Positions 10,227 through 63,899 of a stretch of DNA of 64,000 nucleotides are shown piece after piece. The notes under the pieces are model-generated. The model ran no database searches. It saw nothing but the letters and a program-made list of their open reading frames with translations, and was not told the DNA's origin. The DNA is from Heliocidaris erythrogramma (taxonomy: Eukaryota > Echinodermata > Echinoidea > Camarodonta > Echinometridae): the NCBI GenBank assembly GCA_025617745.1, contig CM046853.1:61456616-61520615 (forward strand). Direction: 5' to 3'. The stretch's first letter is position 1; every line of letters begins with the position of its first letter. The position numbers and the translations under genes are program-made.

Positions 10227-45917
<35,691 letters not shown>

Positions 45918-49597: not shown

Positions 49598-49793
49598 ATA
49601 TGCTTTACTGTACAGTATACAAGTATGTTTGAATTGTGTCTTTTTTGTAAAGATAAAGTTGAGTTCTGGTCATGAGATTGAATTGTGAAAGAAACTGTCT
49701 CAAAGCAATTGGGAAAGATTGATTATATAGCACATAAGAATTTGTGTACGCTGTAAGGTTTTGGAATCACCAAAATGATAAGAAATAAGCCAG

Positions 49794-50105
49794 TTCGGGG
49801 TTAGCGCATGGTACAAATGACCCCAAATATCCACAGATATTTTAGACATGGAGGGTCCCTTTATGTGCACTTCAGAAAAATAACTCTGGGAGTGATAGAG
49901 GTGCCTCATGAATAGCTTTTGTTTCCCCCTTTAAAAAGAATACTTCCACCTGGATATCATGGAATGCACCATTAGTGCATAATTGAATAATGATTACATG
50001 ACATTCATGAGCACATATCGAATATTAGTGTCAGTGGGTTTTAGAATTTGGTACAGATGACCTTTATCTGCTCATGCTCAGATTGCATCTCCGAAGTGGC
50101 TTATT
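49794..50105. mobile_element. MITE family B, copy 2 (312 bp)
   Basis: An inverted, nearly identical copy of 18454-18774, running AATAAGCCAGTTCGG to CCGAAGTGGCTTATT. The frame MSKISVDIWGHLYHALTPNW occurs in both copies because they are the same element, not because of coding. Confidence 0.82.
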
Positions 50106-51159: not shown

Positions 51160-52536
51160 TTACAGCTTTTAGCATAAATAGGAATTTTCTGACATTCACA
51201 AATTCTTTATACAAATGAATACAATCAATTTTTTTACGATTTGCTATGATCAAAATGTACACACAATCATCTACTGTCATAAGATGAATCCTCACATATA
51301 ATAGACTATACGCTAGTAAACTCTCCATGCTGAAAAAAAAATCTGTGAAGTACTTCTGACATGGATAAGGGTATATAGAACTAAAAGAAAACAGAGTGAG
51401 ATCAAGGTAATAGTATACCATATAAACTTATAGTACTATTTACGGCAGATAGTACTATTTACAGCAGATGTGTGATCAAGACTATTTGGAATAACTTATG
51501 CACGAACTAGTAGTCACATGGTAAAGCTACCATTCCCATTTAGGAATAAAAAACATGAGAATATTGCTATGAAATAAAATAAAAACATGAATAAGTACCT
51601 AATGCTACAGATCACAATGTCATAGCAAACAAGTTAATAAGCAAGCTGTTCATAATAGCTATAATTCTATCCAGCAACCAACCTTTCTCAGATTTCGGAT
51701 GTTTTTCTTCAAATAAATAGGTTACCTTACCAGGGGCCCGTTGCACAATACTTGCGTTTAATCGCAACTCCTAAAAATCAAATGCAAGTCCTTAATGCGC
51801 AGTTCTGATTGGCTGAAAATAAAAGTTGCGTTTGATACATTAACACTGTTTTAATCAGATTTTAGAGCATTCAATTTTGACTCTGAAAATTTAGCTCCCT
51901 GAATTGTGCCTTTTTTTCTCTAACAATTGATATTTCAATAGTTAATGACATGTCACTTTAACAGAAATTGCGAAGTTTCTCTCTCAATACCACATTTCTC
52001 ATACTATGATTGCAGGAACCTGTAAGGTAAATGCTGACTTTGTTTTCTGATCTATTTTTCTTCAAATAAATTGGTTACCTTACCAGTGTCCATCAAACAA
52101 ATAAGGATAATATTATAAAAAAACTGCATCAAAATTATATCCATGTACCACTATATGAACAATATATCACATTGCATCATGTTACACAGACTTTGGGATG
52201 GGTATGGTAGAATCTTCAAATTCCTGTTTAAGACAACCCTTCTACAAACTTACTTTATTTGCATTTAATCCGAGAAGGTATATTTGAAAAACAACTGCAG
52301 TATTTACTTTTGAATTTGAAAACACACAATACTAGAACACATTATCTTTCTTAGTATACATAAATCACACACATTGACACAAGAAAACAATCACAATGAA
52401 TTGACCTTGAGATGTCATTCACTCAGATACTTGTTAACAATTTTTGAAAATATAAAAGACAAGAACTAACTTAGGCTCTTGTCTAAAGCCTTCAAGATGT
52501 ATAGAAGAATACCTGTTATATCTGGAAATAATACTA
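51160..52536. other. Stretch between Rap1 and the PIN/CXC element
   Basis: AT-rich sequence holding a half palindromic repeat at 51734-51832 and a short direct repeat (TTCTTCAAATAAAT(A/T)GGTTAC with CTTACCAG) at about 51706 and 52063. I see no gene. Confidence 0.5.
51734..51832. mobile_element. GGGCCCGTTGCAC-type palindromic repeat, partial
   Basis: GGGGCCCGTTGCACAATACT opens it, and GATTGGCTGAAAATAAAAGT with TGCGTTTGAT follows, mirroring the TTGCGTTTAATCGCAA left arm. The closing GGGCCC-type end is missing. Confidence 0.6.
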
Positions 52537-52999
52537 GTGGGGGAGCATAGCAAACCTATTGTGCATTTTGTGATACAAACATCAAATTTGGCACAGATGT
52601 ACATTAACATATTGCGAACATTTTCAGATATTGAGCCACTTGGAATTCTTTCTTTATGTCCGCCATATTGGATTTCAAAATGGCCGCCACTTGAAATCTA
52701 CATTTGCGATTAATTGTGGGTCTAATGCTGGTATTATTTTGATTCTTGTGTCTAAATGTATGTTTTTGGGGTCAAGGAATCCGATGGTAACAATCTTCAT
52801 TGCATATTTTGTACCAATTGGCCGCCATATTGGATTTCAAAATGGCCGCCACTTGAAATCTACATTTGCGATTATCTGTGGGTGTAATGCTGTTATTGAC
52901 TTGATTGTTGTGTCTAAATGTACGTTCTTTGGGTCAAGGAATCTAATGGTAACAATCTTGCATTGCGTATTTTACCATATTGGATTTCAAAATGGCTCG
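52537..52999 (+). repeat. Left terminal inverted repeat of the PIN/CXC element
   Basis: Two subunits of about 170 bp, each with GCCATATTGGATTTCAAAAT, GGCCGCCACTTGAAATC and TCAAGGAAT(C/A)(C)(G)ATGGTAACA-type text, then a partial third copy of CATATTGGATTTCAAAATGG just before the gene. The GCCGCCATATTGG words resemble YY1 sites in reverse. Confidence 0.88.
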
Positions 53000-53011
53000 C
53001 CTCCGTTAAAA

Positions 53012-54746
53012 ATGACTGAACTTTTCGCACGCCTGTACATTGGCTGCCAGACGAGGGATGGAAACCTTGAGGAGTTCTTTGGTCACGAGAACCAGGCATG
53101 TCCTCCTGCACTGTCTGATGGTGGAAAACTTTTCACTGGTACCAAGAGTGATCTCATCACATGCTTGGAAGAAGGCTCTGACGCCAAGAAAGAGACTCCT
53201 GTCACGACCTGTATCGTGCTTGATGGAGCAGCCATCGTCCAGATGCTGAAGCCGGCTGCATCAAAGACCTTTGCAAAGTATGCACATCAGATCTTTATCC
53301 CCTTTATGTCTACGAAGCTGCAAACAGTGTCACGCCTGGATCTGGTCTGGGATACTTGCCTTGTTGATTCAATTAAATGTAGTACACGTGCAAAGCGGGG
53401 ACAAGGCGTGCGTAGACGTGTGATGGCCAACGCAGCTATACCAGGAAACTGACAGAACTTCCTACGAGTTGACAGCAACAAGACCGAGCTGTTCAGGTTC
53501 CTCTCAGTAGCCCTCATGGAATGGTTTGACCAAGAGGACAAGCAAATCGTCATTACTGATGGAGAGGCAGTGCTGAGCAAGCCACTGCTACCAGATATGA
53601 CCTCACTCGCCCCATGTAGCCTTGAAGAGGCCGACAGTCGGATGTTGCTGCATGTATTTCACGCAGCTAAGCATGGACACCATTCAATACTCATCCGGAC
53701 TGTATAGACACTGATCTTGTGGTGCTGACAGTGTCTGTGGTACAGGAGCTGCAACCAGAAGACGAGCTATACCAGGAAACTGACAGAACTTCCTACGAGT
53801 TGACAGCAACAAGACCGAGCTGTTCAGGTTCCTCTCAGTAGCCCTCATGGAATGGTTTGACCAAGAGGACAAGCAAATCGTCATTACTGATGGAGAGGCA
53901 GTGCTGAGCAAGCCACTACTACCAGATCTGACCTCACTCGCCCCATGTAGCCTTGAAGAGGCCGACAGTCGGATGTTGCTGCATGTATTTCACGCAGCTA
54001 AGCATGGACACCATTCAATACTCATCCGGACTGTATAGACACTGATGTTGTGGTGCTGACAGTGTCTGTGGTACAGGAGCTGCAACCAGAAGACGAACTA
54101 TGGCAGGCATTTGGAACAGGCCAAAGTTTCCGATACCTAGCAGTACAAGAAATAGCAGCTGGACTGGGACGAGAGAAGGCTCGTGCACTACCAATGTTCC
54201 ACGCTGTAACTGGATGCGACACTGTGTCAAGTTTTGCCAGACATGGTAAAAAGACTGCGCGGGCAGTCTGGACGGTACTACCAGAACTCACTGAGACGCT
54301 TCTGCAGCTGTCCTCCGCGCCACGTGACATACCAGACGATGCAATGTCCATCATCGAGAGGTTTGTGATTCTCATGTATGATCGAACCGGCAAATGAACG
54401 GACATCAACAAGGCCAGGAGGAAACTCTTCGCAAGGAAAGAACAATGTGCAGCTGATCCCTCCAACGAAGGCAGCTTTAGAAGAACATGTGTATCAAGGT
54501 GGGCATGTGTGGGGTCAGATACTGCTACCAGCACCAGAGCTCCCTTCACCAACCAACTGGGGGTGGTCGACGACTGGAGGACAGTACACATCATACTGGA
54601 CCAGGCTACCTGAGGCAGCTCACAGCTGCACTGAACTGGTGTCTTGCAAGTGCCAGAAAGGATGTGTGAGGCACTGCAAATGCAAGAAGGCTGCCCTTCA
54701 GTGCACAGCCCTCTGTGTGTGTGAAGGGGACTGCACAAGACAATGA
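53012..54746 (+). pseudogene. PIN/FEN-like nuclease with C-terminal CXC domain, broken
   Basis: From MTELFARLYIGC the text matches, from memory, a repetitive family of uncharacterised echinoderm proteins. Recognisable blocks are DTCLVDSIK with CSTRAKRGQGVRRR, ELFRFLSVALMEWFDQEDKQ, LEEADSRMLLHVFHAAKHGH, DTDVVVL-like text, FHAVTGCDTVSSFARHGKK, and a Cys-rich end SCKCQKGCVRHCKCKK. Acidic EEAD and DTD blocks followed by GCD and a helical GKK segment resemble the FEN1/XPG (PIN-like) nuclease core with its H3TH region. The final cysteines resemble a tesmin/TSO1 CXC DNA-binding motif. The frame is interrupted, and a 331-bp segment is duplicated in tandem, so no full product is expected. The nuclease reading is my inference. 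Confidence 0.68.
53434..54095 (+). repeat. 331-bp tandem duplication inside the PIN/CXC gene
   Basis: AGCTATACCAGGAAACTGAC at 53434 recurs at 53765, and the text stays almost identical through GCAACCAGAAGACGA at the end of each copy. The period is 331 bp, not a multiple of three. Confidence 0.95.
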
Positions 54747-55104
54747 GTATACAACATATATGTACTTGTGGCAGTGCTGAATTTGTTAACATGACACTGG
54801 TTATGGACATGTATCTTCAGTACCGATGTATACCTAGCCAATCGTCTTCAGCAAGTTATCTGAATAGTTTCTGTCGTGCGTGTTGTTTTTGCGTAGTGTC
54901 TGTTTGTTGTGTGCTGAGATTGTTTGTTTCACGTTCGGCATGCAGCTGTACCTAAGACATTTACAGACCAAAGACTTTTACACCCATTTAACATGCTTTT
55001 ATAAAATTATTTTCAAAGTATCGTGTTCAATGTAATAATTGCCTAGATAATTACCAAATACAAGTATATACCAGACTGTGAAAAATAACATAAAAGTTTA
55101 AAAT

Positions 55105-55531
55105 GTTACCATTGGATTCCTTGACTCCCCAAAACATACAATTAGACACAAGAGTCAAGTCAATAGAGCATTAGACCCACCGATAATCGCAAATGTAGAT
55201 TTCAAATGGCGGCCATTTTGAAATGCAATATGGCGGCCCATTGGTAAAAAAAACGCAATGTAGATTGTTACCATTCGATTCCTTGACCTAAAGAACATAC
55301 ATTTAGACACAAGAATCAAGTCAATAGCAGCATTAGACCCAGAGATAATCGCAAATGTAGATTTCGAGTGGCGACCATTTTGAAATCCAATATGGCGGAC
55401 ATAATGAGAGAATTCCGAGTGGCTCAATATCTGAAAATGTTCGCAACATATTAATGTACATGTGTGCCAAATTTGGTGCTTGTATCACAAAATGCACAAT
55501 TCCTTTGAATATTTGAGCTAAGCCGGGCCAC
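55105..55531 (-). repeat. Right terminal inverted repeat of the PIN/CXC element
   Basis: Inverted counterpart of 52537-52999 with the same two subunits. Read on the minus strand it also keeps an open frame over about 90 codons, starting MSHSEFSHYVRHIGFQNGRH, parallel to MSHLEFFLYVRHIGFQNGRH in the left arm. Confidence 0.88.
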
Positions 55532-55802
55532 TATACATACATATCTACTTCATCACAATTATTCAAAGAGAGGAAATTTACATGTGATTCTTTCATAAAA
55601 AGGATGACATGACACTTAAATAGGAGAGATTTAGGAAGGAAGCAATCAAATCGTGTAGAGTATATCAGAACATCTTTTTTTTTGGGGGGGGGGGACTCTA
55701 TAAAGGTAGCCTGATTGTCAGAGATTGTCAGAAGAAAAAAAAATCCAGCAAATCACATATCATATCAAGTGCGCTTTGCTAAACAATATATCAATATATT
55801 AA

Positions 55803-55953: not shown

Positions 55954-56046
55954 TCATGATTCAGGTGGTTCTGCTACAGCCTTGCGGCAGAATGGACAGT
56001 GGTTCTTCTGAAGGACTTGGATCTCGTACTCATCGGTGTGAAACAG
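55954..56046 (-). CDS. IFT122: IFT122 last coding exon
   Basis: Encodes [20 protein letters not shown] and [10 protein letters not shown], then TGA. CPFC completes the second zinc site. Acceptor CTCTTGCAG. Confidence 0.96.
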   Translation of the reverse strand: MFHTDEYEIQVLQKNHCPFCRKAVAEPPES

Positions 56047-59000
56047 CTGCAAGAGGAAAATATAAACAAGGTAAACACAATGAGAGGATTCATTTATGTC
56101 TTTTATGAGTACGTCGATATGAATCCAAGGATAACTGCATATTTTTCAATGCAATGTGTATATGAGTGTAGTGGACATGAGTAAGCACTCTTATAGCACT
56201 ATTTCATTAAAACCACTCATACAATCTTGAATGCAAAGCACAAAAGACCAGTCCAATAAAAGGTACAGCTTCTATTATAGGTCTGGGCCTAAGAACATTA
56301 GGATAATCTTTCAAGATCATGTACATCATGTGAAAGCTTGGTGGTTTGAGCAAGTCTTTAAACAAGGAGGGTTGACCATGTTCAGTGCATTAATGCTCTT
56401 GAGAAAAGGTGTAAGGAGTGAATTCTTGATCATCTCTTCCCTTCGGTTGGACTCAAAGCTCTAGGATCCATCTCAGGTCGCTTTCAAATATTCCCAAAAT
56501 ACCTTAACCCTCTTGTTATCACAAGACTAAAATCTTATTCACTTTGTGAATAACGTAGTTGACATGGTATTAAAAGGGTTAAAAAGTCTTGCAACTATTA
56601 TTCCTCACCTGGTTACATGAAGGACAGACAGTGACCGATACATCAGGCATAATGGACTTGAAGTACTGATAACGGAGAGGAGCCGGCCATCTCTTGATCA
56701 CCACGTGACTCCTGTCCAGTGTCTTCAAAACTGCTCGGTTGACCACCACCGGGATAAACTCATTGCCTCCTTGCTGCAATGGAAAAGGACGAAGGTATCA
56801 TAGCAAGAGAGAGATCCAAAGTTCTATGCTGGATAGAGTGGCATTCAACGTGGTCCATCTTTCTGATTACCAGTAAAGAGGTCTAAAACATTTCAGCTAT
56901 CTGAACAGCACTTTAACAGGATGGACCCTTACTATGTCCCAGTATAATATCTTGCGATAAGAAAATCCTCATCTTTCCTATATATTTCATGTGCGTCTAT
57001 AAAAATACCACTTTAATTTACAACTTTTGAATTCGTAGATTTTCAGACACATCTAAACTCTCCTTATCATACAAGCCAGCAATGAGAAGCTAATTAACAG
57101 AGATATCAATTTAGCTATTTTTCTGGTTAAAGTTTTTATTATTCTTCAGAAAAGAGTCTATTCATCGCTCTAGACAGCAGGTTATTAGCACTGGGTAATA
57201 AAACACCACAAAGTTAAATAGTTTTTGTTTCGTTTTGTTTGTTTGTTTGTTTGTTGTTGTTGTTTTTTTTTTTTTTGGGGGGGGGGGTCATCTTACCTCA
57301 AAGCTGAGCAGCCTAGCAGTGAAGGGGTCATCCTGAACTTCCGCGTCATCCCCACCATACTCATCCAGCCTCATGGACTGGACGTTGCCTGTGTTAGACT
57401 CGCTCCACTTGTCTCCACCTCGGCCCTTCCTCGGTGGCTCCATCTGGATCAGCTGGACCGCCTCCTCGTCTGGGATACCTTCTTCCAGGTGGAACTCAAC
57501 CAGAGGGAGCACCTCTGCGGAGTGCAAAAATATGCAATTCAGTACAGTGCCTTTGCTTACTGAATTATAAGTGCTAGTCAAACCTGCATTAGAGACCACC
57601 TGTATAGAAATACCACTAAATACAGACCAGTTTCCTTGTTTACATTGAGTAAGTCTTTATACAGGTTCGACTGTATTTAAACATTTTAAAGGGAAAGTAA
57701 TTGAGCAGTGCATAAGTAAATCTTAAAATGCATTTTGAAAAACATACATGTATTGTAGATTCAAGGAATAGATTATTTAGTGTGGTAAAAAAGAAATACG
57801 ACTCAATTCTTTATCTCTCCTTTTAAAGTACATTTTCATAACTTAACTATAAAAATTACCTAAAAATCACATTTCTACAAGGACCATTTGTGACCTTCAT
57901 GTACATTTGAATGCACTTGTAAAAGCGAACTTGATCACTTACCGAAGGAGGCAAAGGAATGGACGAAAGGTTGGCTACAATTGATACATTGGTTCCCTTG
58001 GTTGTTCAGCAGAGGGTTGGTGGTAGAGCAACGATAACACATTGGTAGCACATCCTACAGTGAAAGAAAGAGACAGACTGGCAATCATTACACATCACTG
58101 CTGATTATTTGAAGGGGAAAAAAGCTGATTTATTCAGCCAGTTAAAACCTCTTCATCTTTGATAAGTTCCAAACATTCAAAAATATTCATTTCACAAAGA
58201 CACATTATTGTGGAACAGTGCTAATTTTTGGATTGTAATGCCAAAAAAAAATTAAAGTTCTAGCAGTCCAAAATTTATAACATAATTCAAATCCATGCAT
58301 TGTTGTAGTGTTGGCTTCTTAGAAGAATAAAAAGGAATATTTTCTTTCTTTCAATTTGGCAACAGAGAGCCAAACACAAAGTCATCATTCTCCCAAAATC
58401 CTATTTGGACATGGCTGACTAGCCAGTTCAGAATTCTCATATTCACTGATCCCCCGTATAAAGAATGTCCTCTTTCTCTAGAATTTCCACTACAATCCAA
58501 AGCAACATCTAAATTAAAGGGATACGCCACCAGGCGGCCATGGGAAAAGTCAGGATTGCGTAAGCCCCGTTCACTCGTACACAAATTTGTGCGTTGAACG
58601 CGTCCGTCGGACTGCTGGGATTACATTTCGGACTGCACGAAACTGACCGAATCTCGCACAAGAGCTCGAGCTCAGGCAGAGCGTGAATGTTGTGCGGCGA
58701 CCAGTCTGTCCGAAGTTTGCGCCCCGCGGGGCAATGGCATGATCAGGTAATGATCACGGTGCCCTCTCGCGGTATAGAAACGTCCACAATCTGCGGTTGT
58801 GTATCCCTTTAAGGTACAGTGTTTCCTATAAACTCTATAAAGGCAGATGTAATCAGTGTTAATCATTGAGCATTGTACTTTAAAGGTCTCTTAATAAGGC
58901 CTCAAACAACAACCCAAGCAGTGTCTGATGGGTAAAGGTAACTGTTACCCTTAAAGGGCAATAAGGAGGCCTACTTGTTAGCAATTGTAATCTTGCTGAT

Positions 59001-62000
59001 TAGTCTGTCTCTTTGAAGGAAGTTTGGCATTGTATATTGCATTTAACTATTATTATCTACAGCACATGGACATAATGCTCTTCTTGCAGATTTTCTTTGA
59101 ATGATTCTTTTGTGTTTTTTTAAATGCCTTATTTTGTCTTTTCTCTTTTTAAAGAGATTATTTTGCAACCCAGTCTAGTTCAAAAGCAGTACATGGAAAA
59201 AAAAATTATCCTACTTGCTTCTCACAACTCTTTTTGCAATCTAATGTCAATATGGATCTTTTTTTCTCACAATTCTTTTAGCATGATTTCATATATTTGA
59301 TTAATTTACCTCAGCATCATGGAATGGCTTCGACCTGATGGTGATACTGCCTAGGTCAATGGACTCCTGGAACCTTAGAGGAATCCTCAAAGACTGCAGC
59401 TTCTCAAAGGCAAAGCGAGCCAGCTTGAAGGCCCCTAGGTTACGGCTCTGCTTGGCCAGGGCATACAGGGTGTTCCTGCAGTATCAGGGTGTTAAGGAAT
59501 GCAGTGATAACCCAGTCACTCCGACATCAAACTGACAATACACAGTCGAGTAATTATATGATTTCAGGGCCCTCAGGGAGAACAGTATTAATACTGATGA
59601 GGCTACCATGGATAAAAAAGACATATTATCACTATTTATTATCATTACTATTAATTCAATTCAATTCAATTTAATTTTTATTCCATTCATTCATAAAAAC
59701 ACATAAATATACAAAGTAAAACAAAATATTAATATAGGAATGTGGAGACAGCCTAAAAAGAAACAGGTCTTATAAAGTGCTGCCACCTAATGAAAAATAG
59801 AAAAACAAATCAAACAAACTACATTAACCTAAATGGCTAAGATTTTGGGGGTTTAAAAGTCCATTGGAGTTGGTTTGACAGTGTGATTTTGGTATAAGCT
59901 GGTTTTAGTTGCAGCATAAATGAGCTGAACATTGTGTATCCACAATATTCTTCTTGCTAACTTTACGAATCAGTCATAGAGGTTTTCGTTTAAACTAAAA
60001 CACTTAGATTAAAATGACCTGTTTATAATGCAGCATATTATTAACCACTTAAAACAATAATTGCTAATGACAAATATTAGAGACAGATCTCAGTTCTTAG
60101 AGACAGGTTTTAGTTCCTGGTTTAATTGTTTAAGTGAGCATACCTTTCAGGAGAACAACCTCCATTTCTCCATTTGTATGTATGCAATTCAATATCACAA
60201 GAAAATATAAATTTATTCATGTCTAGGCATATGACACAACATTCGTTCTTGGGCAAGAAAATTGGGTGGAATCTGACACCTATGGCACTAAAGAAATTGT
60301 ACAGGTAAAGTGTTGTTCTAAGAGAGATTATAACAAGGAAGTGAAATGTGATTTCATGTCTCCAAATAATAATTGGAATACATATGTGAGCTGAGACAAT
60401 TGGACAGACATGGTTATAAAGTCCAAAGTCAATGAAAATCAAAGGATACACTTTGCTGATGCCATGCGGTATGTTGTTAAGAATGGCGTGCCACAGGTAT
60501 CTAGACATGTTGAAAAGGGCATCGGGAAGATGGGACGTGAACGGTTCATCGGTGTAGCGCTGGATGGAATGGTAGACATAGTACATTTCAGCCTTCGCTT
60601 GGAACTCCTGGAACTTGCTTAGCATGTCCTGCCTCTTGTCTGCATCAGCTGGAAAAAAGAAACACATGAGCAATGATAATAATAACAATGCAACATTTCT
60701 TACATAGCGCAAGAGACAGAATACTGTCTTGATGAATTTTATGTAGAAATGCATTTGAAAGAAGTTGTTATATAATTTAAACTCTTAATGAAATTCATAA
60801 AACTGTAATTCAATAGGTATTAAAGAGAAACAGCTAAACACACATAAACTCATAATCATATATCCTTGGCTACATGTATCATAATGCAGATGTGAAATAT
60901 GAATTTCGAATACTATTTATGCCCCTTCATCTACTCTTTCACATGGAGAAAATATTTCATCATCTTTCAGGCAGAAATCAAGAAATTTCATTATCACTGC
61001 GTATTGAGAGTCCAAAGAGTCACAATTTTAACATTTGAAAATTCATTTAAGACAATCCTTTAAAAGATGTGGTGGCACCAAAGGGGTACGATAATGGATA
61101 TGCAGGTAGTGAAATTTAGTGGTGCTTTGGTAATCATTTTAAGGCAAGGGGCAGTTTTCAAAATGGTAGATGATGAACAAGATTATCATAAGGACTGCAA
61201 GACTAATCTCCACTTTAGCAATTCTAGGTCACTGACCTCCTGCTATCTCCAAGCACTGCATGGACAGCATCCAGAAGTAATATCCAGCATCGTTGAACCG
61301 GCTCTCCAGCACTGCATTGTGGGTAAGCTGTTCCAAGACCTTGACAGCCTCATCTTGCCGGCCAGCCTTGTGGAATGCTAAGAGAATAAAAAAGAATAAG
61401 ATGCGATGAGAGATGTGTTTCCTGCAAGGGTTCATCCAACTTAAACTGATAATGATTCTGAATTTCCAGTGTCTAAAACTAATATGCATACCTCTCTGAG
61501 CTTCCTCAAATCTGTCATTCTCTGCTAGCCACTGAGCATATGGGACATATACATCATCCTAAAATGGGGAACAAAGCAGGAAGAACAAAAGATTTTTTCA
61601 AAATTGATATCTTCACTATGACACTTACCACTGAAAAAACAACTAATTATATCTAAGCAATGGTGATGATTTGATTACCATATCTGAACATATTTCTCAG
61701 TTACACACCTCTGAAACTTTGATATAAAAATATTTTACGACAAAATTAAGAATATCATGTATTTTGCTTACTTTTACACGCAAAAAAGATCAGTAAACAA
61801 GGATTCTAGGGATGATAATATCAGTTTGAAAAGCCTAAAGTATGAATCATGCCTCCCAAATAGGATTGGTTAACCAGCGAGTTATCCTCTTCCATACCTT
61901 GAACTCTGGATGCTTCTCCACCAGACCGAAGGCAGCATCCCAGTGACGAGACTCCACATGAAGCATGACCAGATTCCTAGTGTCACCCATCTTGGTGTAT

Positions 62001-63899
62001 GTCTCAGCAGCGTAGGCAAACTGCTCCATCTTCTTGAAGTACTGGGCACACTTCCCTAGAGGCTCTCTCTCCGCCTTATCCAACTTCCTTGCCACATCGA
62101 TCAGCCTGAAAGACCATAGGTGTTTGGATTCAAGATGGATGTTTGAAAGAAGATTGTAGGTCACATAATGAGAAGAAAGCATGGAGAATGAGCCAATATT
62201 TTAGTGCAAAGATATTGACGCAGATAACAGTGACACAGACATTTTTGCAAGTTGTCGTTTTTGAAAAAAATAACCCATGCTACTCACAATACATGTTCCT
62301 ATATGTACTGCCAGCTCATTTTTTATGAGTTGCAACCAAACTATTTACTATTTTTAAGAACAAAACCCTTGCGAAAATAAGCACTTATACATCTGCATAC
62401 AACACTAAGTTGGGGTTTTATATAAAATATTTTACTTCAATGACCACGCTTATACCGTAGAGAGAAAAACATACTAGTACATTCAGAAAAAGTTAGCAAG
62501 CTTTATCTTGTCACATTCACAAGAATTTCTTGAATCTCTACAGATTTTACAAGAATCACTCAGAAATCAATCCATAGTGTCTGTGAATGAGAAGAACTTA
62601 CATGTCAGCCCATCCATGGTCTCCTATGATCTCAATGGCTTTGAGATGTTCGCCAGCTGACAGGTACATCTCAGCAGCAGCCCTAGGCTCGTTGATGTTC
62701 TTGGCCCAGTCGGCCTGCTTGGTGATCAGGAGCTTCTTGTCTTGTGGATCACCTGACCCAATGAATTCCTGAACATAGCAAGGTAGGAAAGGACAACAAT
62801 ATTTAGCTGAAAGGAGGACAATTTACCTTAAAATAAATAACTTGTGTACAGCTAGTATTGATCCATTAGACTAACAGTCAATTGTGAAGGTTTATTTTAA
62901 AGGATCAAGTCATAAAAATGAAAAAAAAAACACATGTACAGTCTACAGATTTGGCAGGATCTAAATAGGAAAAGAATGCAAATAAATCTGGCCACTCAGA
63001 TCAATATATGAAAAAGTCTGACAATGTTGCGATGATGCACCAAACACGTGAGGATAAAAATTTTGGTTAAACATCAGGATTCTCAACAATTTTCTGTGCA
63101 AAACGTTTTTATTTTAAAAAAATCACACATGCAGACATTTCAAAAAATAAATAAAACTATTCCTTAGCAAAGCATTTTTATTGCAAAAATCATACATTTT
63201 GACATTAAAAACAAAAATCAAATTGGTCCATTACCTTGGCATGGTCAAACATACGCAGGTCTGTGTACATGTTCATTGCTCTCTGTTCCTGGCCAGCTCT
63301 CTTGTACAGTTTGGCTGCTTCTCCAAACTTGCCCTGGTATGCATAGATGTCAGCTAGGAACAGCTGATCATCAACCTCCCCACGACGTTTACGCTCCTGT
63401 GATCAAAGGTCAAAGGTGGACAAGGTATGGTTATAGGGTGTGAATAAATTGAGGATGAAATTTGATGCACAAATCTTCATAGTTAACTACTATTTTAAAG
63501 TAACACTGGATTCTGATGGATTCAAATGGATCCGTCTCTATGCATCACCCAGGTCAACAGGAATCACCGTCCCACTACAATGATGTTACACTAGCTGCCA
63601 GGTCAAAACTTCCATCAATAAGTTTTTTTTTGTCTGTAGCTTACACTTAATTTGGAAATCATCATCAATTTCAATTTCTTCAGAATGTTTGTTCAATAAA
63701 TGATACTGCCTGCAGGAGAGAGAAGAAGCGGAGACAGAAACTGACCTCTATGCTGTGTATAAGTTCCAGATAACGTAGGTCTCTGACCCTGGTAAAAGCC
63801 TTCTTGGCAGTGTCAAAGTCCAGGCCCTGAATAGCTTCACTGGCTAGGGCAGTCCAGTCCTTGACGGTTACTCCTAGACAGGCCACTTTGTATGCATCT
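55954..63899 (-). CDS. IFT122: Intraflagellar transport protein 122, C-terminal half (12 exons, partial)
   Basis: Joined on the minus strand: 63899-63746, 63396-63235, 62768-62602, 62105-61898, 61558-61492, 61377-61237, 60648-60450, 59475-59310, 58054-57943, 57514-57297, 56773-56609 and 56046-55954. This gives 616 residues and TGA at 55954-55956, with consistent phase at all eleven junctions. The protein is a core subunit of IFT-A, which drives retrograde transport and GPCR entry in cilia. The sequence follows animal IFT122 closely: DLRYLELI, WAKNIxEPxAAAEMY, [31 protein letters not shown], then the zinc-binding pairs CYRC/CINC and CPSC/CPFC at the C-terminus. The helical repeats are present; the N-terminal WD40 propellers (roughly the first half of about 1,200 residues) are outside the window. 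Confidence 0.96.
56047..57296 (-). other. IFT122 last introns (around exon k)
   Basis: Introns 56047-56608 and 56774-57296 hold only AT-rich sequence and a GTTT/T/G-run at about 57234-57287. I see no other feature. Confidence 0.6.
56609..56773 (-). CDS. IFT122: IFT122 exon k
   Basis: Encodes [40 protein letters not shown] and [15 protein letters not shown], with the first half of the last zinc pair (CPSC). 55 codons, phase 0 at both ends. Confidence 0.96.
57297..57514 (-). CDS. IFT122: IFT122 exon j
   Basis: Encodes [60 protein letters not shown] and [12 protein letters not shown]. The middle ([11 protein letters not shown]) is the least conserved part of the tail. Donor GTAAGA, next to a poly-C/A tract in the intron (minus strand sense). 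Confidence 0.95.
57943..58054 (-). CDS. IFT122: IFT122 exon i (first zinc-binding pair)
   Basis: Encodes [37 protein letters not shown] plus one base. CYRC and CINC form a CxxC...CxxC zinc ribbon typical of the IFT122 C-terminal domain. Confidence 0.96.
58514..58812. mobile_element. TTAA-flanked MITE (299 bp), piggyBac-like
   Basis: TTAAAGGGATACGCCACC at the left mirrors the complement of the right, TTAAAGGGATACACAACCGC. TTAA at both edges is the target of piggyBac and Kolobok transposons. The interior is GC-rich for this window. It lies in the IFT122 intron between exons h and i (58055-59309). Confidence 0.72.
58813..59309 (-). other. Rest of the IFT122 intron before exon i
   Basis: No gene or clear repeat apart from T-rich tracts. 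Confidence 0.55.
59310..59475 (-). CDS. IFT122: IFT122 exon h
   Basis: Encodes [40 protein letters not shown] and [15 protein letters not shown]. The first base completes Val. Donor GTAAAT, phase 0. Confidence 0.95.
60450..60648 (-). CDS. IFT122: IFT122 exon g
   Basis: Encodes [40 protein letters not shown] and [20 protein letters not shown], ending HGISK plus GT of a Val codon. The donor is GTATCC, a weak consensus chosen because it alone keeps the ISKV...TLAKQS-type family text in frame. Confidence 0.93.
61237..61377 (-). CDS. IFT122: IFT122 exon f
   Basis: Encodes [40 protein letters not shown] and CLEIAG, preceded by the Ala completed with exon e. Donor GTCAGT, phase 1. Confidence 0.95.
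61492..61558 (-). CDS. IFT122: IFT122 exon e
   Basis: A 67-bp exon encoding [20 protein letters not shown] then QR, nearly invariant in animals. Phase 1 at its GTATGC donor. Confidence 0.95.
61898..62105 (-). CDS. IFT122: IFT122 exon d
   Basis: Encodes [60 protein letters not shown] and LVEKHPEFK. Its first base completes Met with exon c. Donor GTATGG, phase 0. Confidence 0.95.
62602..62768 (-). CDS. IFT122: IFT122 exon c
   Basis: Encodes [40 protein letters not shown] and [15 protein letters not shown], ending in phase 2 at GTAAGT. The ITKQADWA block is strongly conserved in animal IFT122. Confidence 0.95.
63235..63396 (-). CDS. IFT122: IFT122 exon b
   Basis: Encodes [38 protein letters not shown] and [16 protein letters not shown], two TPR-like helical hairpins; 54 codons, phase 0 at both ends. 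Confidence 0.95.
63746..63899 (-). CDS. IFT122: IFT122 exon a (first in window)
   Basis: Encodes [35 protein letters not shown] and [16 protein letters not shown]: the start of the helical TPR-like region after the WD40 propellers. The first base completes a codon from the exon beyond the right edge. Acceptor TTCCCAG, donor GTCAGT. Confidence 0.95.

Follow-up and report, generated by a model that had tools for sequence, protein, structure and literature searches.

A nuclease-like gene remnant between long inverted arms beside IFT122: probably a decayed, internally deleted DNA transposon of AcademX-like kind

The locus examined here raises the question of what enzyme could have moved it: two long inverted arms enclose one broken gene whose motifs recall a structure-specific nuclease, and no DDE transposase is visible between them. 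The first-pass annotation had proposed that an undescribed group of DNA transposons might be mobilised by this nuclease, fused to a CXC domain. Our analysis of the window (the whole stretch of DNA analysed, 64,000 nucleotides long) leans instead, with modest confidence and from sequence features, towards a decayed class II (TIR) DNA transposon of an animal genome, non-autonomous, AcademX-like and shortened by internal deletion. The element measures 2,999 bp (ends 52535..55533; Table 1), and blastn found a single occurrence of it within the window. The DNA is eukaryotic, as seen from the exons of IFT122 on the minus strand (window 55966-62200), which were recognized by their TPR domain and by two models for C-terminal zinc ribbons; the Pfam TPR_IFT122 match lay at 60-62 kb, and IFT122 chains in PDB were also matched. 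The C-terminal zinc ribbon match of IFT122 was placed at about 55966-56052, so that the element sits ~430 bp beyond the last such match, shortly after the 3' end of IFT122, with its own gene pointing towards IFT122.

Long inverted arms had been described from the sequence, and their existence was borne out by direct comparison. The segments 52558-52954 and 55500-55104 share 357 of 394 aligned bases, with 6 additional gap positions, and thus differ at about 9% of aligned positions. The arm-versus-arm blastn score was 522, whereas the best of 50 block-shuffled versions of this 5.1-kb stretch reached 37.4; the similarity of the arms is far above chance, and the reading of the locus as a long-TIR element is supported. 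A 162-bp repeat occurs in about two tandem copies per arm, and the four copies are 88-93% alike, with left and right copies forming no groups of their own. The match between the arms is poor across their outermost 20-30 bases.

The ends of the element were sought by asking for at least three matching terminal bases together with an exact flank repeat of 2-12 bp, and three parses were listed. The best parse (52535..55533) has 6-bp termini, TAGTGG...CCACTA, with TAC outside on each side; the second (52537..55531) has 4-bp termini, GTGG...CCAC, with TA outside on each side; the third has an AG flank repeat and lies further inward. The TA flanks reported by the first-pass annotation are therefore present at 52537..55531, but they come second to the TAC parse with its longer termini. 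The TAC/TAC pair is suggestive as a candidate target duplication, since three random flanking bases would agree by chance in ~2% of cases and the parse, available from one copy, was picked as the best. These ends bear on the proposal that two unrelated things are seen here, a PIN/CXC pseudogene having come to lie by chance between inverted copies of a repeat. The presence of one copy in the window and the poorly matching outermost arm bases would agree with such a coincidence, but matching 6-bp termini with a 3-bp repeat outside them are unexpected from independent insertions, and we regard it as improbable.

The TAGTGG terminus resembles the short terminal consensus of hAT elements. Target duplications of hAT elements are 8 bp long. 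The 8 bp on either side of the best ends match at 2 of 8 positions, and none of the parses listed (2-12 bp searched) had an exact flank repeat exceeding 3 bp; hAT was rejected on these grounds.

Table 1. Features of the element and its immediate flanks, in window coordinates.
Feature	Position	Strand	Remarks
Left 3-bp flank	52532..52534	.	TAC; candidate target site duplication
Left inverted arm	52535..52996	+	TAGTGG terminus; two 162-bp copies and ~23 bp of a third
First readable piece	53012..53449	+	From first in-frame ATG beyond the arm
VLD motif	53216-53224	+	In first readable piece
VWD motif	53345-53353	+	In first readable piece
Arg-rich stretch	53387-53419	+	In first readable piece
331-bp tandem duplication inside gene	53434..54101	+	Copies identical at 328 of 331 positions
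Readable piece in first tandem copy	53453-53704	+	Near-copy at 53784-54035
Second readable piece	53784..54035	+	In second tandem copy; EEAD at 53955-53966
Third readable piece	54002..54394	+	DTD 54038-54046; TGCD 54209-54220; GKK 54245-54253
Last readable piece	54369..54746	+	Nine-cysteine tail 54645-54734; final TGA 54744-54746
A+T-rich stretch	54747..55103	+	Gene end to right arm; about 34% G+C
Right inverted arm	55104..55533	-	CCACTA terminus on + strand; about two 162-bp copies
Right 3-bp flank	55534..55536	.	TAC; candidate target site duplication

Between the arms, a single gene remnant on the plus strand extends from about 53012 to 54746, as the first-pass annotation had stated, and the EEAD, DTD, TGCD and GKK motifs and the cysteine-rich tail were found where it had placed them. 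The frame of the first readable piece is open back into the left arm, where further in-frame ATGs occur at 52760, 52784 and 52946, so that the gene may begin upstream of 53012. Downstream, the coding sequence is interrupted by two in-frame stops (TGA at 53450 and TGA at 54395), by two frame breaks (one near 53700, the other somewhere from 54398 to 54613 and judged by eye to lie near 54437) and by a tandem duplication of 331 bp; the duplication and the four other coding breaks had gone unrecorded in the initial description. The gene is dead, and the whole protein cannot be made by the element copy studied. The two tandem copies differ at about 1%. The TGA at 53450 and the frame break near 53700 recur in the second copy and so most likely predate the duplication.

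The putative nuclease identity of the remnant is drawn from its motifs, and nuclease activity is presumed from them. Their order, VLD, VWD, EEAD, DTD, GCD and then GKK, is that of FEN1. The spacings of the acidic motifs are 43, 92, 26 and 60, compared with 52-53, 71-74, 19 and 63-64 in four PDB FEN-1 chains; the DTD-GCD spacing (60 versus 63-64) is thus close to that of FEN-1, whereas two of the others (92 and 26) are clearly longer. A motif pattern composed after the window had been seen matched all four FEN-1 chains and 0 of 200,000 shuffles, and a shorter pattern, likewise composed after the fact, matched 1 of 200,000 shuffles. The FEN1/EXO1/XPG enzymes combine a PIN-like fold with an H3TH, and the remnant differs from them in being joined to a cysteine tail and in its broken reading frame. 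Translation of the element in six frames gave no match to an XPG or PIN family in Pfam, and phmmer against PDB (one of the three plus-strand frames and one gene piece) returned weak unrelated rows only. In pairwise alignments, 6% of 500 shuffles scored at least as high as the alignment to EXO1 and 80-98% at least as high as those to the four FEN-1 chains; for a joint profile, 24 of 200 shuffles did as well. A profile built from the four FEN-1 sequences assigned probabilities of 0.1-0.2% to all five sets of gene pieces, which were outscored by the five best of 100 shuffles. AlphaFold2, run on one 131-aa piece without relatives, yielded a mean pLDDT of 34.7, too low to be of use in judging the fold. 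A search for XPG_I, intended only to find a source of FEN sequences, was positive in 0 of 1 genome and in 4 of 14 control genomes. The earlier designation as a PIN/FEN-like nuclease is supported by the order and the rough spacing of the acidic motifs and not by the Pfam, PDB, alignment or profile comparisons.

The cysteine-rich tail carries nine cysteines arranged as C-x-C-x3-C-x3-C-x-C-x6-C-x3-C-x-C-x3-C, a spacing that resembles that of the tesmin/TSO1-like CXC domain. The usual tesmin/TSO1 CXC is a pair of domains, whereas the tail of the remnant is a single copy. Pfam returned no CXC family at E up to 10, although the HMMER filters remove most matches above E about 0.1. The CXC tail of the first description can accordingly be retained as a likeness in cysteine spacing, unaccompanied by a Pfam match.

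The absence of a visible DDE transposase, also noted at the outset, was confirmed in two ways. The six-frame comparison with Pfam gave no DDE match, the three rows returned being weak and unrelated (best E, 0.036), and the spacers measure 15 bp from the left arm (to 52996) to the ATG at 53012 and 357 bp from the gene end to the right arm; with spacers of these lengths, a DDE domain would not fit in the element copy studied. The nuclease-like gene is the only gene seen between the arms, which counts in favour of the proposal that mobility was due to the PIN/CXC protein, with the cysteine tail binding the long arms and the FEN-like nuclease cutting their flaps or branches. The ordered acidic motifs are complete, and cruciforms could arise from long arms that contain subterminal repeats. 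The copy at hand, however, is single and dead, and its left arm adjoins the gene as though sequence had been removed. No strand-transfer chemistry is known for enzymes of the FEN family, so integration would need another enzyme. Moreover, Academ has already been described as a DDE superfamily in which a nuclease is encoded (PMC10045372). Overall, a nuclease acting as the mover appears very unlikely, and the claim is not supported, because its basis is the absence of a DDE domain from one decayed 3.0-kb copy while published Academ already includes a nuclease-encoding lineage. More doubtful still is its genome-wide form, in which the sole product of long-TIR elements in this genome would be a FEN/EXO1-like nuclease whose cysteine-rich tail binds DNA, and the elements would move without DDE by its cutting of branches or hairpins formed by the arms. 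A literature search on DNA transposon superfamilies with a PIN domain found no paper; it covered PIN domains only, and such an element is not claimed to be undescribed.

The base composition of the locus bears on a different possibility, namely that a long-TIR (fold-back type) element of another superfamily carries, as a passenger, a fragment of an unrelated PIN/CXC gene. The gene remnant has 51% G+C, compared with 34-39% in the arms, the 3' part and the flanks, and the left arm joins the gene with almost no spacer, both of which count in favour of a captured fragment, as does the likeness of TAGTGG to the short hAT terminal consensus. The contrast in G+C is nevertheless weak as an argument, since coding sequence often exceeds the neighbouring DNA in G+C, and the 8-bp duplication typical of hAT elements is not seen at the flanks. 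We consider a passenger origin unlikely.

An internally deleted AcademX-like element, the reading that we favour, accommodates both the nuclease-type gene and the missing transposase. The nuclease of AcademX is of the XPG type. The left arm breaks off ~23 bp into a third copy of the 162-bp repeat, 15 bp short of the next in-frame ATG, which could mark a deletion junction. According to the published account, AcademX elements make target duplications of 3 or 4 bp and AcademH elements of 9 or 10 bp, a difference that seems tied to the encoded nuclease and helicase, the type of nuclease being left unstated there (PMC10045372). The element studied here would share with Academ/AcademX its DNA transposon ends, the candidate 3-bp duplication and the nuclease-type gene (PMC10045372). 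It differs from Academ in the absence of DDE and in its length of 3.0 kb versus about 5.6 kb, the mean of the curated bivalve Academ consensus elements being 5,565 bp (PMC10294476). A deleted AcademX-like element is thus compatible with the nuclease-type gene, the candidate 3-bp duplication and the ~2.6-kb shortfall. In the scenario that we infer, the full ancestral form would have encoded a DDD/E transposase and the nuclease part, and a deletion between the left arm and the nuclease part would have taken out the transposase region. The element would have moved by cut-and-paste, with the DDD/E transposase recognising the termini and producing a 3-bp target duplication, and the nuclease would have been at most an accessory processing branched DNA. 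Derivation from Academ is probable, whereas membership is not assigned because DDE, the part that defines Academ, is absent from this copy. A segment chosen to represent the putative lost N-terminal transposase part matched no Pfam family, and a literature search for DUF6589 found no paper; that members of the family have a long N-terminal transposase part is a tentative lead. KolobokP elements are composite-like transposons that encode a His-Me nuclease besides a DDD/E transposase, and they provide a precedent for a DNA transposon with a transposase plus an extra nuclease (PMC9587614). As a candidate for the present element, KolobokP was ruled out by its long terminal direct repeats and by its nuclease being His-Me and not PIN (PMC9587614).

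If the ordinary explanation holds, the locus would be one more worn copy among DNA transposons with an additional nuclease, and the DDE domain missing from a single decayed copy would not be a sign of a novel mobility enzyme. If the bold proposal were true, a DNA transposon would owe its movement to a flap-type nuclease, a chemistry of which no example is known among transposons. The question raised by the locus is the role of the accessory nuclease in nuclease-carrying DNA transposons.

Searches for relatives covered prokaryote, plasmid and viral records and not animal genomes, so their misses say little. Two protein scans of viral contigs yielded 5 and 26 pattern-matching stretches and one of prokaryotic genome contigs yielded 55, with no relative confirmed by tblastn in any of them. 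A degenerate motif scan of viral contigs gave 0 stretches, as did a variant to which the window does not itself conform; a further variant gave 3, matching over 18 residues only (E about 0.01). The motif scan of genome contigs returned 2 stretches with stops in the surrounding frame and matches of only 14-17 residues (E 0.03-0.05), and a scan of viral contigs with the arm core returned 0. No relative was found among phages (one protein piece; left-arm DNA) or plasmids (one protein piece), and PHROGs, queried with four pieces, gave one weak row (E, 0.041).

Other repeats were observed elsewhere in the window. Inverted arrays of 16- and 26-bp minisatellites of the TTCGGAAATACGAACC type lie at 38247-38746 and 42969-43405, and the interior between them (about 4.2 kb) contained no Pfam family at E 0.01 in six frames. 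At 27491-28427, a GTCC microsatellite precedes a tandem array of five 170-bp repeats that are 94% alike, and at 29278-30901 about 820 bp are duplicated in tandem with 92% identity. A 322-bp sequence is present in two inverted copies (18454-18774 and 49784-50105); since these are 99.4% identical, it is probably a recently active short mobile element.
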